Below, piece after piece: positions 262-6,907 of a stretch of 6,907 nt of DNA. The stretch is from Candidatus Rokuibacteriota bacterium. Lineage in GTDB: Bacteria; Methylomirabilota; Methylomirabilia; Rokubacteriales; JACPHL01. Numbering within the stretch: position 1 is the first letter of the stretch; the number at the start of each line of letters is the position of its first letter. Location of the stretch: NCBI GenBank assembly GCA_016188625.1, contig JACPHL010000243.1, forward strand, positions 1-6,907, given 5' to 3'. The notes beneath the pieces were generated by a model. That model had not been told where the DNA came from. It saw nothing but the letters and a program-made list of their open reading frames with translations, and searched no databases. Position numbers and translations under genes: made by a program.

Positions 262-1356
262 CCGAAGAAGGTCAGCCCCGACTACTGGCTCTTCCTCGTG
301 GTCCTCTCCCTGGTCGGCCTCGGGGTCGTGATGGTCTACTCGTCGAGCGCGATCCTCGCCGCCGACCGCATGCGGGACCCGTACTTCTTCCTCAAGAAGC
401 AGGGCCTCTGGGCGGCTCTGGGGCTCGGCGTCCTCTGGGCCGCGATGGTGGTGGACTACCGGCGCTGGCGCGGGGTCGTCCTCCCGCTCCTCGCGGTCGC
501 CTTCGGCCTGCTCCTCCTGGTCCTCATCCCCCCCTTCGGCCAGGAGATCAACAGCACCCGCCGCTGGCTCCGCTGGGGGCCGCTCTCGTTCCAGCCGACC
601 GAGCTGGCGAAGCTGGCCCTGGTCGTCTACCTCGCCGACTTCCTGGCCCGGCGCCAGGCGGTGGTCGGGCAGTTCTTCCAGGGCTTCCTCCCCCCGCTCC
701 TGGTGACCGGCGCCATGGCGGGCCTCATCCTGCTCCAGCCGGACCTCGGCTCCAGCGTGGCGCTGGTGGCGATGGTCTTCTGCCTCCTCTTCCTCGGCGG
801 GGCGCGCCTCGGCCAGATGCTCGTCGTCGGGCTGGCCGCGCTCCCGGTCATCGTCCTGGCGGTCTCCGGGGCGAGCTACCGGCTCCGGCGGGTCTTCGCC
901 TTCCTCGACCCGTGGTCGGACCCCCGCGGCTCCGGCTTCCAGATCATCCAGTCCTACCTCGCCCTCGGGGGGGGTGGCGCGGCCGGCCGGGGGCTGGGGG
1001 AGTCCAAGCAGAAGCTCTTCTACCTCCCGGAGCCCCACACCGACTTCATCTTCGCCATCCTCGGGGAGGAGCTGGGGTTCCTCGGGGCCGCCGCGACGGT
1101 GGCCCTCTTCGGCCTCCTCCTCTGGCGCGGGGTCCGGGTCGGGCTCCGGGTCGCCGAGCCCTTCGGGGCCTTCCTCGCCCTCGGGCTCACGGTGATGCTG
1201 ACTACCCAGGCGCTGGTCAACCTGGGGGTCGTGGTGGGGCTCCTGCCGACCAAGGGGCTGCCGCTCCCCTTCGTCTCCTTCGGCGGCTCCTCGCTCCTGA
1301 CGGCGATGCTCGCCGCCGGGGTGATCCTCAACGTCTCCCAGCACGCCGATGTTTAA
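259..1356 (+). CDS. ftsW: Peptidoglycan glycosyltransferase FtsW (SEDS family)
   Basis: FtsW is the SEDS-family membrane glycosyltransferase that polymerises lipid II into septal glycan strands, working with the division transpeptidase (PBP3/FtsI). The 365-residue product is almost entirely hydrophobic segments, consistent with about ten membrane helices. The first is [20 protein letters not shown] near residues 9-28. Family motifs in order are [20 protein letters not shown], then [20 protein letters not shown], then [21 protein letters not shown], and [13 protein letters not shown] near the end. Asp262 in HTDFIF matches the Asp thought to be catalytic in SEDS proteins. I chose TTG at 259 because GGAGGG lies 6 nt upstream and the ORF then starts just after the murD stop. 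The in-frame ATG at 175 would overlap murD by 82 nt and add a basic tail unlike FtsW. RodA is the main alternative; the dcw context argues for FtsW. The 3' end overlaps murC by 8 nt. Confidence 0.95.
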
Positions 1357-2761
1357 GCGCTACCAGCAGATCCACTTCGTGGGGATCGGGGGGGCCGGGA
1401 TGAGCGGGATCGCCGAGGTCCTCCTCACCCTGGGCTACCGGGTCACGGGCTCGGACCTCAAGCGGAGCGAGCTCATCGAGCGCCTGGAGCGGCTCGGGGC
1501 CAAGGTCTTCACCGGGCACGCCGCCGCCCACGTCGAGGGGGCCCACGTGGTCGTCTACTCCTCGGCGGTGGCGCGCGACAACCCCGAGCTCCAGGCGGCC
1601 CGCCAGCGCGGGATCCCGGTCATCCCGCGGGCCGAGATGCTCGCCGAGCTGATGCGGATGAAGTACGGGATCGCCGTGGCCGGGACCCACGGCAAGACCA
1701 CCACCACCTCCATGGTCGCGGCCGTGCTGGCCGAGGGCGGCTTCGACCCCACCGTGGTCGTGGGCGGCCGGATCACGGCCCTCGGGGCCGGGGCGCGCCT
1801 CGGGCAGGGGGAGTTCCTGGTCGCCGAGGCCGACGAGTCGGACGGCTCCTTCCTCAAGCTCACCCCGACCATCGCGGTCGTGACCACCATCGACCGGGAG
1901 CACCTCGACTACTACGGCGACCTCCCGGCGCTCCGGGAGGCCTTCCTGGCCTTCATCAACCTGGTCCCCTTCTACGGGGCGGCGGTCCTCTGCTCGGACC
2001 AGCCGGAGATCCGGGCCCTCCTCCCCCGGGTGGAGAAGCGGGTGATCACCTACGGCCTCGCCGGCCCCGCCGACCTGGTGGCCGCGGGGACGGTCCTCGA
2101 GGGCCTCACCGCGCGCGTCGAGGTCCTCCTCCGGGGGGAGTCCCTGGGCGAGCTCGCGCTCCAGGTCCCCGGCCTCCATAACGTGGCCAACGCCCTGGCC
2201 GCGACGGCCGTGGGGCTCGACCTGGAGATCCCCTTCGCCGTCATCCAGCGCGCCCTGGGCGCCTTCAGCGGCGTCCAGCGCCGCTTCCAGCTCAAGGGCG
2301 AGGCGGGCGGGGTCCTGGTCGTGGACGACTACGGACACCACCCGGCCGAGATCCGGGCGACCCTGGCCGCAGCCAAGGCGGCCTTCGGCCGGCGGACCGT
2401 GGTGGTCTTCCAGCCCCACCGCTACACCCGGACCTATCATCTCCACGACGAGTTCCTGAACGCCTTCGACCAGGCCGACTGCCTGGTCGTCACCGACATC
2501 TACCCGGCCGGCGAGCCCCCGATCCCGGGCGTCCACGCCCGGAGCCTGGCGGAGGGGATCGCGGCCCGGGGCCGACGGGGGGAGGTGAGATATCTGAGCG
2601 ACCGGAGGGAGATCGTCGAGTTCCTCTTCCAGACCGTCCGGCGCGGGGACCTGGTCCTCACCCTCGGGGCAGGGGACGTCTGGGGCGTGGGCGAGGAGGT
2701 CCTGACCCGTCTCAAGCGGGTCGGGGGCGGGAGTGGAGAAGGAGAAGGGCATGCTGGGTGA
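1349..2761 (+). CDS. murC: UDP-N-acetylmuramate--L-alanine ligase
   Basis: MurC is the cytoplasmic ligase that attaches L-alanine to UDP-MurNAc using ATP, the first amino-acid addition in peptidoglycan precursor synthesis. The 470-residue product has a normal length. It opens with the UDP-binding Rossmann motif [17 protein letters not shown] (residues 9-25). The ATP-binding P-loop GTHGKTTTT starts at residue 112, followed by EADESDGSF (160-168) and [11 protein letters not shown] in the central domain. Next come [13 protein letters not shown] and QRRF, then [10 protein letters not shown] (326-335) and FQPHRYTRT in the C-terminal domain. GTHGKTT with DYGHHP separates MurC from MurD, MurE and MurF; the related Mpl lacks this dcw context. 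The ATG lies inside the ftsW 3' end (8-nt overlap, ATGTTTAA) and has no clear Shine-Dalgarno, so coupled translation from ftsW is likely. murG, usually found between these two genes, is not here. Confidence 0.97.
2739..2753 (+). promoter_or_regulatory. Ribosome-binding site deciding the murB start
   Basis: AAGGAG at 2739-2744 is 6 nt from ATG 2751, inside the last murC codons. It favours ATG 2751 over the upstream in-frame GTG at 2733, which has only a G-rich stretch (GGGGGCGG at 2723-2730) almost touching it. Confidence 0.6.
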
Positions 2762-3629
2762 CATCCGCGGTGAAGTGCGCTTCAAGGAACCCCTGGGCTT
2801 TCACACCTCGCTCCGGATCGGCGGGCCGGCGGACGTCTTCATCGTCCCCCAGGACGTGGACGACATCCGGAAGGCCGTGGCCTTCGCCGAGAAGGAGCGG
2901 CTCCCCGTGGTCATCCTCGGAGGCGGGAACAACCTCCTGGTGAAGGACAGGGGGATCCGCGGGGTCGTCATCAAGCTCGAAGGGTGCCTGGCGCGGATGG
3001 AGTTCCACGGCGAGGAGGTGACGGTCGGGGCCGGGGCCAGCCTCGCCCACGTCATCCGCGAGGCGGCGGCCCTCGGCCTCGGCGGGATCGAGCCCCTGGT
3101 GGGGATCCCCGCCTCCATCGGCGGGGCCCTCGCCATGAACGCCGGCACGCCCGACGGGGCCATCGGCGACTACGTCTCGGCCGTGTACTTCCTCCACCCC
3201 GACGGGACGATCGGGGACCTCAAGCCCCTCAACGGGACCTTCGCGTATCGGGCCTTCCAGTACCCGCCCGGCGCCATCCTCCTGGGGGCGCGCATCACCC
3301 TGCACCGGCGGCCCCAGAAGGAGATCCTCGCGGACATCAAGGCGCGCCTGAAGCACAAGAAGTCCACCCAGCCCCTGGCCCTGGCCTCGGCGGGGTGCGT
3401 GTGGAAGAACCCGCCGGCGGACCACGCCGGGCGGCTCGTCGAGAAGGCGGGGCTGAAGGGGAAGCGGATCGGGGCCGCCGAGATCTCGGCCAAGCACGCC
3501 AACTTCATCGTCAACCGCGGCGGCGCCACCGCGGCCGACATCCTGGCGCTCATGGATCTGGCCTTGGAGCGCGTCCAGACCCGGTTCGGGATCAAGCTGG
3601 AGCCTGAGATCCGGATCGTGGGGGACTAG
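2751..3629 (+). CDS. murB: UDP-N-acetylenolpyruvoylglucosamine reductase (type II-like)
   Basis: MurB is the cytoplasmic FAD enzyme that reduces UDP-GlcNAc-enolpyruvate to UDP-MurNAc with NADPH. The 292 residues include the FAD-binding (PCMH-type) segments [35 protein letters not shown] and [19 protein letters not shown], then [18 protein letters not shown]. The substrate-binding FAYRAF and [10 protein letters not shown] (Cys216) follow, and the protein ends with [11 protein letters not shown], which carries the conserved C-terminal Glu. The short length, compared with about 340 in E. coli, suits the type II class that lacks the extra tyrosine-loop insert. The proton-donating position is Cys rather than the Ser of E. 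coli. I prefer ATG 2751: AAGGAG (2739-2744) lies 6 nt upstream. An in-frame GTG at 2733 would add six charged residues. It overlaps murC by 11 nt. The Cys variant is known in the family to my recollection, so function is probably intact. Confidence 0.95.
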
Positions 3630-3646
3630 GGGCCGGGCCAATGAGC
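3627..3646 (+). repeat. Direct repeat, copy 1 (includes murB stop)
   Basis: TAGGGGCCGGGCCAATGAGC. The TAG is the murB stop codon and the sequence also forms the left tip of the palindrome. Copy 2 at 3782-3802 is identical except for one extra G in the G-run. Similarity continues weakly downstream as GTCCC after a 3-nt gap. Confidence 0.85.
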
Positions 3647-3753
3647 ATCGTCCCACGGCGTTCTCGGTCGTCGGCCATCCTCAACGTACTCGGAGTACGC
3701 CTCCGGTGGCCTCCTCCCTCGGGCCTTGTGGGACTCGCTCCTTGTCCCGGCCC
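3630..3753 (+). repeat. Long imperfect palindrome (REP/MITE-like element) between murB and ftsQ
   Basis: The two ends are inverted repeats. GGGCCGGG (3630-3637) pairs with CCCGGCCC (3746-3753), CAA (3639-3641) with TTG (3742-3744), GAGC (3643-3646) with GCTC (3737-3740), and GTCCCAC (3650-3656) with GTGGGAC (3728-3734). Further in, GGCCA (3673-3677) faces TGGCC (3707-3711), and the centre is the 7-bp palindrome CGTACTC-G-GAGTACG (3685-3699, axis at 3692). The arms keep nearly equal spacing along their whole length, so this is one folded unit and not chance pairing of short words. It carries no transposase. There is no T-run after it, so it does not look like an intrinsic terminator. Transcribed within the operon, it would form a strong stem-loop. 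A non-autonomous dispersed repeat is my best reading; its family is not recognised. Confidence 0.65.
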
Positions 3754-3784
3754 GGCGGGGGCGGGGTGGAAGGGGAGCCAGTAG
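3641..3784 (+). CDS. Small ORF of doubtful coding value inside the murB-ftsQ repeat region
   Basis: An open frame of 47 codons begins at the ATG in direct-repeat copy 1 (MSIVPRRSRSSAILNVLGV...) and ends at the TAG that begins copy 2, 12 nt before the ftsQ ATG. Its initiation region is nearly the same sequence as that of ftsQ. The product is rich in Arg, Pro and Gly, with no recognisable domain, signal peptide or membrane helix. Most of the ORF is the palindromic element, which argues for fortuitous reading rather than a protein gene. If translated, its stop would place terminating ribosomes right at the ftsQ ribosome-binding site, so it could act as a leader ORF. I list it because of that arrangement and do not claim a product. 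Confidence 0.15.
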   Translation: MSIVPRRSRSSAILNVLGVRLRWPPPSGLVGLAPCPGPAGAGWKGSQ

Positions 3785-3802
3785 GGGGCCGGGCCAATGA
3801 GC
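3782..3802 (+). repeat. Direct repeat, copy 2 (includes ftsQ start)
   Basis: This is the same sequence as 3627-3646 with one additional G. Here the ATG (3797-3799) is the ftsQ start and the G-run AGGGGG (3783-3788) acts as its Shine-Dalgarno sequence, with 8 nt spacing. The two copies are 155 nt apart. Deleting one copy plus the spacer would leave the murB TAG 12-13 nt before the ftsQ ATG. Confidence 0.85.
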
Positions 3803-4579
3803 GTCCCCCCATTCCTCACCCCCCGCGCCCGCTCCGCGGCGATGCGGGACCTGGCCGAACGGCAGCCGCTCCTGGCGCGCCAGCGACGGCGCCCCCGGGA
3901 CGGCCGCTCCACCCGTCGCGCGGCCCTCCTCGGACTGGGCCTGACCCTGGCGACGGCCTCCGCCGGCGCCCTCGCCTGGTGGGGGAGCCAGTGGCTCCGC
4001 AGCACCCCCCTCTTGGCGGTGAGGAGCATCGAGGTCCTCGGCCACGAGCGGCTCGTCGAGGCGGCGCTCGTCGAGGCCGCCGCGATCCCGCCCGGCACGA
4101 ACCTCCTCGCCCTCGACCCGATCGCCGTCCGGGAGCGGCTGGAGGCCCTCCCCGGGGTGAGGCACGCCCGGGTCGTCCGCCAGTTCCCCGGCCGGGTCGC
4201 GCTCCTCGTCCAGGAGCGGGAGCCCTACGTCCTCGCCAACGCCGACGGCCTCTTCTGGCTCGACGCCGAGGGACGGGTCCTCGGGCCCGAGCCGCACCCC
4301 CTGCCGCCGCGCCTCCCCATCCTGACCGGCGTGACGCTGCCGGCGGAGCCGGCCGCCTCCGCCCCGGACCGCGTCCAGACCGGGCTCGCCCTGCTCCGCA
4401 TCCTCTCCCGGGTGGGGGGGCGGCTGGTCCCCCGCGTCTCCGAGATCGACCTGGGCCGGCCGGAGGGGCCGGTCCTCTACACCACCGAGGGGGTCGAGGT
4501 GCGGATCGGGGTCGAGGCGTGGGAGGAGCGTCTGGGGCGCCTCGACGCCCTGCCCGCTTCCGGGATCTGGTGGTCATGA
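3797..4579 (+). CDS. ftsQ: Cell division protein FtsQ, apparently frameshifted at its 3' end
   Basis: FtsQ is a bitopic inner-membrane protein that links FtsA/FtsZ-stage proteins with FtsB, FtsL and the septal synthases. The 260-residue product has an Arg-rich cytoplasmic N-terminus (1-41), one membrane helix (about 42-62, ALLGLGLTLATASAGALAWW) and a POTRA domain (about 73-142, LLAVRSIEVLGHERL through VRVVRQF-like RHARVVRQFPGRVALLVQER). A beta domain follows, with NADGLFWLDAEGRVL and a GVEVRIGVEAWEERLGRLDAL end. After Leu252 the frame runs only PASGIWWS and stops, while FtsQ proteins usually end with a DLRF-type beta strand. That strand (RFRDLVVMTP) is present in another frame at 4555. The start ATG lies in a repeat copy with AGGGGG 8 nt upstream; ATG 3842 is a weaker alternative without a Shine-Dalgarno. 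The family call is firm; the true 3' end is not. Confidence 0.88.
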   Translation: MSVPPFLTPRARSAAMRDLAERQPLLARQRRRPRDGRSTRRAALLGLGLTLATASAGALAWWGSQWLRSTPLLAVRSIEVLGHERLVEAALVEAAAIPPGTNLLALDPIAVRERLEALPGVRHARVVRQFPGRVALLVQEREPYVLANADGLFWLDAEGRVLGPEPHPLPPRLPILTGVTLPAEPAASAPDRVQTGLALLRILSRVGGRLVPRVSEIDLGRPEGPVLYTTEGVEVRIGVEAWEERLGRLDALPASGIWWS

Positions 4580-4674: not shown

Positions 4675-5923
4675 CGCCAGATCAGCGACCACCATCGCCG
4701 GCCTCGACATCGGGACGACCAAGATCCTGGCCGTCATCGGGGAGGTGACGCCGACCGGGATCGACGTCCTCGGGGTCGGCCAGAGCCTCTCGCGGGGGCT
4801 CCGAAAAGGGGTGGTGGTGAACCTCGACTCGACGGTGGAGGCGATCAAGCGGGCGGTCCAGGAGGCCGAGCAGGCGGCCGGCGTCGAGATCGAGTCGGTC
4901 TTCACCGGGGTGGCGGGGGGGCACATCAAGGGGGTGAACAGCCGGGGGGCCGTCGCCGTGCAGGGGCGGACCCGGGAGGTGAGCCGGGCCGACGTGGACC
5001 GGGCCCTCGAGGCCGCCCGGGCGGTGACCCTCCCGCCCGGCCGGGAGATCATCCACGTCCTCCCCCAGGCCTTCATCCTCGACGGCCAGGACGGGATCAG
5101 GACGCCGCTCGGGATGGCGGGGGCGCGGCTCGAGGTCGAGGTCCACATCGTCACCGGGGCGGTGACCTCGGTGCAGAACCTCGTCAGGAGCGTCAACCGG
5201 GCCGGCCTCACGGTCCAGGACATCGTGCTGCAGCCGCTGGCCTCGGCCGAGGCCGTCCTGACCCCGGACGAGCGCGATCTCGGCGTCATCCTCGCCGACG
5301 TGGGCGGGGGGACCACCGACGTCGCCCTCTTCCGGGACGGGGCGATCTGGCACTCGGCGGTGATCCCGCTCGGGGGGGACCACATCACCAACGACCTGGC
5401 CGTGGGGCTCCGGACCCCGTCCCAGGAGGCCGAAGAGCTGAAGAAGCGCTGGGGCTCGGCGCTCACCGCGCTGGTCCTCCCGGACGAGACCGTGGAGGTC
5501 CCCTCCATCGGCGGGCGGAAGCCCCGGGTCCTCTCCCGGCAGATCCTCGCCGGGATCATCCAGGCGCGCGTCGAGGAGATCTTCACCCTGGCGGCCCGGG
5601 AGCTCGCCCTGGCCGGCCTCGAGGACGTCGCCACGGCCGGCGTGGTCGTCACCGGCGGCTCCGCGGTCATGGAGGGGATCCCGGAGCTGGCCGAGCGGGT
5701 CTTCGACCTCCCGGTCCGGGTGGGCTGGCCCACCGGCGTCGGGGGGATGGCCGACCTCGTCGCGGGCCCGAGCTACGCCACCGGGGTGGGGCTGGTCCTC
5801 CACGGGGCGCGCCTCCGCGGGCAGAGCCCGCTGGGGATGGCCGGCGGGCTCGACGGCGGGGAGGGGGCCGGGGTGACCCGGCTCCTGCGGCGGATGCGCG
5901 AGTGGTTCAGCCAACTCTTTTGA
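4661..5923 (+). CDS. ftsA: Cell division protein FtsA
   Basis: FtsA is the actin-like ATPase that anchors FtsZ filaments to the cytoplasmic membrane and recruits later divisome proteins. The 420-residue product has the phosphate-1 motif AGLDIGTTKILAVIG (from residue 13), then the FtsA-specific SHS2 (1C) domain with SVFTGVAGGHIKGVNSRGAV. Phosphate-2 ADVGGGTTDVALF has its Asp at 213, and the adenosine motif is VVVTGGSAVMEGI (328-340). A Gly-rich linker (about 388-404) leads to the amphipathic membrane-targeting helix LLRRMREWFSQLF at the very C-terminus. Length and motifs are those of a complete, functional FtsA. The ATG at 4661 has only a distant, weak G-rich sequence (GGCGGGG, 13 nt away), so translation is probably coupled to ftsQ, whose shifted frame stops at 4674. 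ftsZ follows after 15 nt. SHS2 and the C-terminal helix exclude MreB or DnaK. Confidence 0.96.
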   Translation: MCPSNARSATTIAGLDIGTTKILAVIGEVTPTGIDVLGVGQSLSRGLRKGVVVNLDSTVEAIKRAVQEAEQAAGVEIESVFTGVAGGHIKGVNSRGAVAVQGRTREVSRADVDRALEAARAVTLPPGREIIHVLPQAFILDGQDGIRTPLGMAGARLEVEVHIVTGAVTSVQNLVRSVNRAGLTVQDIVLQPLASAEAVLTPDERDLGVILADVGGGTTDVALFRDGAIWHSAVIPLGGDHITNDLAVGLRTPSQEAEELKKRWGSALTALVLPDETVEVPSIGGRKPRVLSRQILAGIIQARVEEIFTLAARELALAGLEDVATAGVVVTGGSAVMEGIPELAERVFDLPVRVGWPTGVGGMADLVAGPSYATGVGLVLHGARLRGQSPLGMAGGLDGGEGAGVTRLLRRMREWFSQLF

Positions 5924-5941
5924 GGAAGGACGGACGCCATG
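5923..5941 (+). promoter_or_regulatory. Ribosome-binding site of ftsZ
   Basis: AGGAAGGA (5923-5930) overlaps the last base of the ftsA stop and is 8 nt from ATG 5939. It is a good Shine-Dalgarno match with normal spacing, fitting the high expression FtsZ needs, and it favours the long N-terminal form over ATG 6005. Confidence 0.65.
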
Positions 5942-6907
5942 GGTAAGCGGACCCACGCCAAGCCCCGGCCGGGCGGTGCCCGCCGGGCCCCGAAGGGGGA
6001 GGACATGGGGGAGGGGATCATCTTCCGCCTAGAGGACGAGGACGAGGCGGCGCCGGTCGAGAACGCCAAGATCAAGGTGGTGGGCCTCGGAGGCGGCGGC
6101 TCCAACGCGGTCAACCGGATGATCAGCGCCCGCTTCGACGGGGTGACCTTCATCGTCGCCAACACCGACCTCCAGGCCCTCCGCTCCTGCCCGGCCCCCA
6201 TCAAGCTCCAGATCGGCGCCACCCTGACGGGCGGGCTCGGCGCCGGCTCCGACCCCGAGATCGGCCGGCGCGCGGCGACCGAGGACCGCGACGAGATCGG
6301 GCGGGTCCTCGCCGGGGCCGACATGGTCTTCATCACCGCCGGGATGGGCGGGGGGACCGGGACGGGGGCGGCGCCCGTCGTGGCGGCCATCGCCAAGGAG
6401 CTGGGGGCCCTGACCGTGGCGGTGGTGACCAAGCCCTTCGCCTTCGAGGGGACGCGCCGGACGCAGGTGGCCGAGGGGGGGCTCGGGGAGCTCCGCGCGG
6501 TGGTGGACACGCTGATCACGATCCCGAACCAGCGCCTCCTCAGCGTCGTGGAGCGGACGACGCCGCTCCAGGAGGCCTTCCGGATCGCCGACTCCGTCCT
6601 CCACCAGGCCGTGCAGGGGATCTCGGACCTCATCCTCGTCCCCGGGCTCGTCAACCTGGACTTCGCCGACGTCCGAACGATCATGTCGGGGATGGGGCTG
6701 GCCCTGATGGGGACCGGGGTGGGGCGGGGCGAGCACCGGGCGATCGACGCGGCCCAGATGGCCATCGCGAGCCCGCTCCTCGAGGAGACCTCCATCGAGG
6801 GGGCGCGGGGCCTCCTCATCAACATCACCGGCGGCCCGGACCTCACCCTGCACGAGATCAACGAGGCGGCGACGGCGATCCGGGAGGCGGCCCACGAGGA
6901 GGCCAAC
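5939..6907 (+). CDS. ftsZ: Cell division protein FtsZ, N-terminal part (partial)
   Basis: FtsZ is the tubulin-like GTPase that polymerises into the Z ring. The first 323 codons are present and the frame runs off the right edge, so the C-terminal linker and FtsA-binding tail are missing. GTPase motifs are [18 protein letters not shown] (from residue 45), NTDLQAL, the tubulin signature [10 protein letters not shown] (137-146), and the nucleotide-contacting FEGTRR. The T7-loop sequence [11 protein letters not shown] supplies the catalytic Asp for the next subunit. The core therefore looks active. AGGAAGGA (5923-5930) lies 8 nt before ATG 5939 and supports that start. It gives an N-terminal extension of about 43 residues, longer than in E. 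coli (around a dozen), starting [20 protein letters not shown]. An internal ATG at 6005 (residue 23) is preceded by GGGGGAGG but only 2 nt away. It follows ftsA directly. Confidence 0.97.

Follow-up and report, generated by a model that had tools for sequence, protein, structure and literature searches.

A dispersed palindromic repeat of Rokubacteria/Methylomirabilota inserted between murB and ftsQ, with an element end that probably became the ftsQ start

ERIC (RU-1) is a bacterial MITE of 127 bp with TA termini. YPAL, or RU-2, of Yersinia and Erwinia is a palindromic repeat of ~168 bp that is known from empty and filled sites and has target duplications of 3-26 bp (Delihas 2007, PMC2229807; PMC2759123). 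GTAG-tagged REPs are RAYT-linked palindromes of 20-40 bp, the termini of which often give a TAG stop to the flanking ORF (PMC3733652). A literature search of open-licence papers returned no paper joining Rokubacteria with palindromic repeats. Here, we analyzed the whole of a 6907-bp contig (C43; the window) from a 2.6-Mb genome (G000). We observed that the palindrome separating murB from ftsQ is a member of a hitherto unnamed family of ~123-nt palindromes from Rokubacteria/Methylomirabilota, a phylum with almost no cultured members. The insertion is real, and the family, though undescribed, is of a known kind. The family is notable for its exact placement at stop codons, its variable target duplications and the probable recruitment of an element end as the start of an essential gene.

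The closest known kind is YPAL/RU-2, although we observed no significant sequence similarity to the published RU-2 (2/60 shuffles score as high). Similar to YPAL/RU-2 (~168 bp), the family described here (~170 in its long form) is palindromic, has many intergenic copies and lacks TA termini. Target duplications are variable in both (3-26 bp in YPAL/RU-2, ~3-27 nt here), in each case by comparison of empty and filled sites. The family differs from YPAL/RU-2 in its phylum and in a left end that lies exactly on stop codons. With ERIC/RU-1 and other MITEs it shares its size class, its intergenic location 3' of genes and its non-autonomous character, but in place of the TA termini of ERIC we observed no TA duplication and a duplication of variable length. 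The dispersed copies are MITE-like in having inverted terminal arms and no coding capacity.

On the window contig, ftsW, murC, murB, ftsQ, ftsA and ftsZ run in a single direction (Table 1). MurB is 68-79% identical to the MurB of relatives. The murB start at ATG 2751 was chosen over the ORF-caller start at 2733 because the N-termini of relatives' MurB begin there. The N-terminal FLTPR block of FtsQ aligned with ILSPR of relatives, the FtsQ of which starts at a nearly identical place. Junctions within the cluster are mixed: ftsW/murC and murC/murB overlap, whereas 81 nt separate ftsQ from ftsA and 15 nt separate ftsA from ftsZ. The proposal that murB and ftsQ, once rejoined without the insert, would have a 12-13 nt gap like the other junctions therefore holds only loosely.

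Table 1. Coordinates of genes and repeat features in the window
Feature	Position	Strand	Evidence or remarks
murC	1349..2761	+	Mur ligase domains (Pfam); overlaps the end of ftsW
murB	2751..3629	+	FAD_binding_4 and MurB_C (Pfam); stop TAG 3627-3629
CTAG, left border of the element	3626..3629	+	Contains the murB stop (TAG); CTAG is found before the left end in 78/150 family copies
Mobile-repeat copy, 124-nt imperfect palindrome	3630..3753	+	Covariance-model match; homologues in relatives; covariation
Outer arms	3630-3656 / 3728-3753	+	Part of the 3630..3753 palindrome
Inner stem	3666-3679 / 3705-3718	+	Part of the 3630..3753 palindrome
Apical stem	3685-3689 / 3695-3699	+	Part of the 3630..3753 palindrome
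Incidental 47-codon open frame	3641..3784	+	From the element's ATG to the TAG before ftsQ; no evidence of a gene
Element tail or filler, G-rich, with SD-like GGAAGGGGAG	3754..3780	+	In every family copy the hairpin is followed by a variable tail; this exact tail is presumably a family tail
Second copy of the left end (GTAG + GGGGCCGGGCCAATGAGCGTC...)	3781..3811	+	27-nt direct repeat, 89%; likely left over from a tandem or second insertion; holds the ftsQ initiation region
ftsQ	3797..4579	+	POTRA_1 and FtsQ_DivIB_C (Pfam); start codon ATG 3797 within the second left-end copy

We confirmed the direct repeat noted in an earlier, sequence-only reading of this DNA: TAGGGGCCGGGCCAATGAGC at 3627-3646 recurs, with one extra G, as TAGGGGGCCGGGCCAATGAGC at 3782-3802. 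As that reading stated, copy 1 holds the murB stop and copy 2 holds the ftsQ start (Table 1). A repeat search extended the pair to 27 nt with 89% identity (3629-3655 and 3785-3811, spacing 156). The longest exact repeat within 3500-3900 was 18 nt, compared to a maximum of 15 in 1000 dinucleotide shuffles. Across the whole G-rich 6.9-kb window, 18 nt was reached in 3/300 shuffles, and the exact length is less impressive at that scale. The long palindrome placed between the copies by the same reading is real, as judged from covariation over 28 family members, but it spans 3630-3753 and includes copy 1, which pairs with the element's right arm at 14/16 positions.

We performed a BLAST search with 3627-3760 and observed homologues in 55/195 relatives. 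Most begin at or near query base 6, i.e. GCCGGGCCAA, extend to GGCCCGGC and sit behind unrelated genes. A covariance model built from 28 family members matched 61/95 genomes of the phylum, many with 16 to at least 36 copies; its match in the window covered 3628-3755 (E 4.3e-24). The dispersed copies anticipated for a mobile repeat are thus many in relatives. The window's own genome, for which multiple copies had likewise been anticipated, holds only one: BLAST, pattern and covariance-model searches returned no second copy from its 344 contigs (84% complete). Scanning named genomes for the element pattern yielded 87 stretches, and all but one among the matches listed are from Rokubacteria, Rokuibacteriota or Methylomirabilota. 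Viral contigs gave no exact match to the element pattern. The sole non-Methylomirabilota match among those listed (L126, positions 39-67) lies at the extreme end of a contig of an Oligoflexales MAG and is possibly a binning error. Three genomes (G073, G078 and G082) gave 16-21 weak model matches each, with best E values of 1e-7 to 1e-9; these may represent a diverged sister family that resides in a different family of the class.

Filled and empty sites of sister species were compared at loci outside the window. Compared to the empty G047, the flanks of L206 (G024) match 5686-6164 and 5222-5712, with a 27-nt overlap and 131 nt missing; the site is also empty in G046 and G042. L060 (G013) has a 25-nt target duplication relative to the empty G001 and G011 alike, and the first element of L274 (G053) has a 3-nt overlap at TCTAGCC relative to the empty G036 and G018. 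G043 is empty at a site that is filled in G005 and G007. These duplications of ~3, 25 and 27 nt come from family members at other loci than the window copy, and the empty sites compared in this analysis belong to other families of the order than that of the window genome. The long duplications fall on overlapping genes and take in the stop of the first and the ATG of the second; both genes are thereby left intact. A direct repeat scoring at least 9 between left junction and right flank was present in 29/150 copies, 23 of them over the stop codon, compared to 5/299 in a mismatched-pair control. A fixed duplication of CTAG, our first idea, was dropped because duplications of 18-27 nt and sites at TGA or TAA exist. 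The variable duplication length, as in Yersinia YPAL, points to an insertion mechanism yet to be named. Together, the junctions form a natural series, filled and empty, in which a small palindrome enters essential operons and leaves genes unbroken: the upstream gene retains its stop and, where the duplication is long, a second copy of the overlapping start codon is made.

We observed no element between murB and ftsQ in any of 29 relatives, where 28 junctions are overlapping or short and one (G048) has an unrelated ~105-nt spacer. The element is therefore lineage-specific at this junction, and the spacer is not one that relatives conserve. Its absence here and the dispersed copies in relatives support the non-autonomous inserted element suggested by the sequence-only reading. 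That reading had also called such an element unusual in an essential division operon. This did not hold, as the family is also present in two further genomes, at different junctions within this cluster. A family element lies between ftsW and murC in L220 (G002:C427, 4977-5105 of the contig). In L084 (G025:C219, locus 481-643, - strand), a diverged element separates ftsQ from ftsA and is flanked on each side by the 11-nt direct repeat GAGAAAGTAGC. Both copies are independent of the window copy. With order-mates carrying copies elsewhere in the division cluster, essential operons are thus ordinary targets for the family.

Covariation was used in place of fold energy as evidence of structure. By fold energy, 3640-3785 was no more stable than shuffles on the + strand (z 0.10) and was more stable on the - strand (z -2.68). 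Four helices with 35 pairs in total make up the consensus, and 24/35 pairs show two-sided changes over the 28 members. Among stem cells we counted 155 two-sided and 7 one-sided changes, and 95.6% were paired, compared to 79.1% in shuffles. Shifting the partner by one to three columns abolished the covariation signal. Some internal mismatches (GTTCTCGGTCGTCG facing CTCCTCCCTCGGGCC) hardly vary within the family. Covariation this strong, with co-directional genes on either side and coding undamaged, would also suit a native, immobile intergenic RNA of the division operon, such as a terminator, processing site or regulator. Such an RNA is very improbable given that the sequence sits behind many unrelated genes, is absent at the orthologous junction in all of the relatives compared and has filled/empty pairs. 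The excess of two-sided over one-sided cells agrees better with correction of a DNA palindrome than with G-U drift in an RNA, and an Rfam search with the element returned only chance miRNA matches, none above the gathering threshold. G-U intermediates are nearly absent, which suggests that complementarity of the arms is maintained at the DNA level, via correction or through a requirement of the mobilising enzyme.

The left end lies at the stop codon of a gene-like upstream frame in 104/150 distinct copies, compared to 0.6% of random positions. These stops are TAG in 85 copies, TGA in 14 and TAA in 5, with zero offset in 77, and a co-directional start lies downstream in 78 of the 104. The left end of the element is CTAG or another stop codon, followed by NGCCG. 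CTAG is rare in element loci (0.28 per kb), and stop codons make up 36% of the other CTAG sites; a preference for CTAG thus accounts for part of the pattern. Loss of gene-breaking insertions would explain more of it.

Palindromes with termini that supply a TAG stop to the flanking ORF recall the GTAG REPs, for which terminal stop codons have been described (PMC3733652), and the element might accordingly be taken for a REP-type palindrome moved by a Y1 (RAYT) transposase. We regard this as highly unlikely. The element (~123 nt, compared to 20-40 bp) is three to six times REP length, its copies mostly carry CTAG, with GTAG in 13/150, and it makes target duplications. A co-occurring Y1 transposase was found neither in G000 nor in many high-copy genomes, among them G033, G035, G051, G016, G002, G089 and G093. 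As general candidates for the mover, Y1 transposases and reverse transcriptases were both rejected, since neither is present in all high-copy genomes or co-distributed with copy number. Our tentative and rather doubtful proposal is that a mover other than a fixed-stagger transposase, a Y1 transposase or a reverse transcriptase places the element at stop codons in operons, makes the ~3-27 nt target duplications and re-duplicates the left end. An ABC transporter gene (L054 and L059) and an S1/P1-nuclease-like gene (L055 and L057) are each followed by a single copy at orthologous sites. Some insertions are thus old and stably kept. An adjacent autonomous partner was looked for at single-copy sites; on inspection, the upstream genes there encode an ABC transporter and an S1/P1-nuclease-like protein rather than transposases.

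For the origin of the repeat pair, the sequence-only reading offered two versions. The first, in which the element duplicated the gene junction, is incorrect for copy 1: this copy is the left arm of the element itself and is seen again at unrelated loci, although junction duplication does occur at other sites of the family. The better fit is the second, in which one end of the element turned into the initiation region of ftsQ. In the window, the element and its tail are followed by TAGGGG and at least 16 nt of the left end, inside which ftsQ begins. At L303, its G007 orthologue and L214, the right-hand repeat consists of flank plus 22-27 nt of the left end, followed by short filler and the next gene; L056 apparently has two elements in series. 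Unlike L303, the window has no third target copy after copy 2. The order of element, tail, second left end and next gene at two independent loci indicates that copy 2 is most likely the remnant of a tandem or second insertion.

Copy 2 could instead be a native ftsQ leader (TAGGGG..CCGGGCCAATGAGC), at a target that resembled the element end, which would make the pair a long target duplication; here GGGCCGGGCCAATGAGC, the sequence before ftsQ, is taken as pre-insertion. Target duplications of 18-27 nt that hold a stop and the next ATG are real in the family, and GCTCCGGGC in the empty site of G036 (compared to the second element of G053) corresponds to GCGCCAGGC at the element end, which shows that a target can be similar to that end. 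However, the native leader would have to match the family left end over 18-20 nt by accident, copy 1 pairs with the right arm, and such a leader was found before ftsQ in no relative. We consider a native leader unlikely.

Very probably, 3630-3753 is a non-autonomous palindromic insertion of a family from Rokubacteriales and other Methylomirabilia, the spare left end of which is now the ftsQ start. In an ancestor, the element would have inserted at the CTAG that ends murB and kept the murB stop codon. A second or tandem insertion, or a duplication, followed by deletion may then have left a spare left end, with its AATGAGC as the ftsQ start. More speculatively, the present sequence could have arisen by deletion from the element's ATGAGC to an ATGAGC native to ftsQ. 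The operon would stay readable because no gene is cut, with the hairpin placed in the mRNA between the murB and ftsQ cistrons. By this route, an essential gene would have acquired its translation start from the end of a mobile repeat.

The 47-codon frame within the element stops 12 nt before ftsQ, the same stop-gap-start spacing as at murB, and could in principle keep translational coupling. An ATG near the left end is present in only 29/143 family copies. At L112 / L045, a 121-bp tandem duplication comprises the element's right half, the tail and the next gene's start. A presumed tandem pair on LDXP01000037 was rejected, as it represents two separate loci. In some GWC2_70_16 and GWA2_70_23 copies (L100, L102, L113, L133, L143 and others), an arm or the loop is interrupted or replaced by a CGCTCGCCTCGCCTGCGGCTGCGGCTCGC-type repeat. 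Long-form tails (L127, L161, L174, L177 and ~25 others) end in a conserved TCGTTGGAGG, which is Shine-Dalgarno-like for the next gene.
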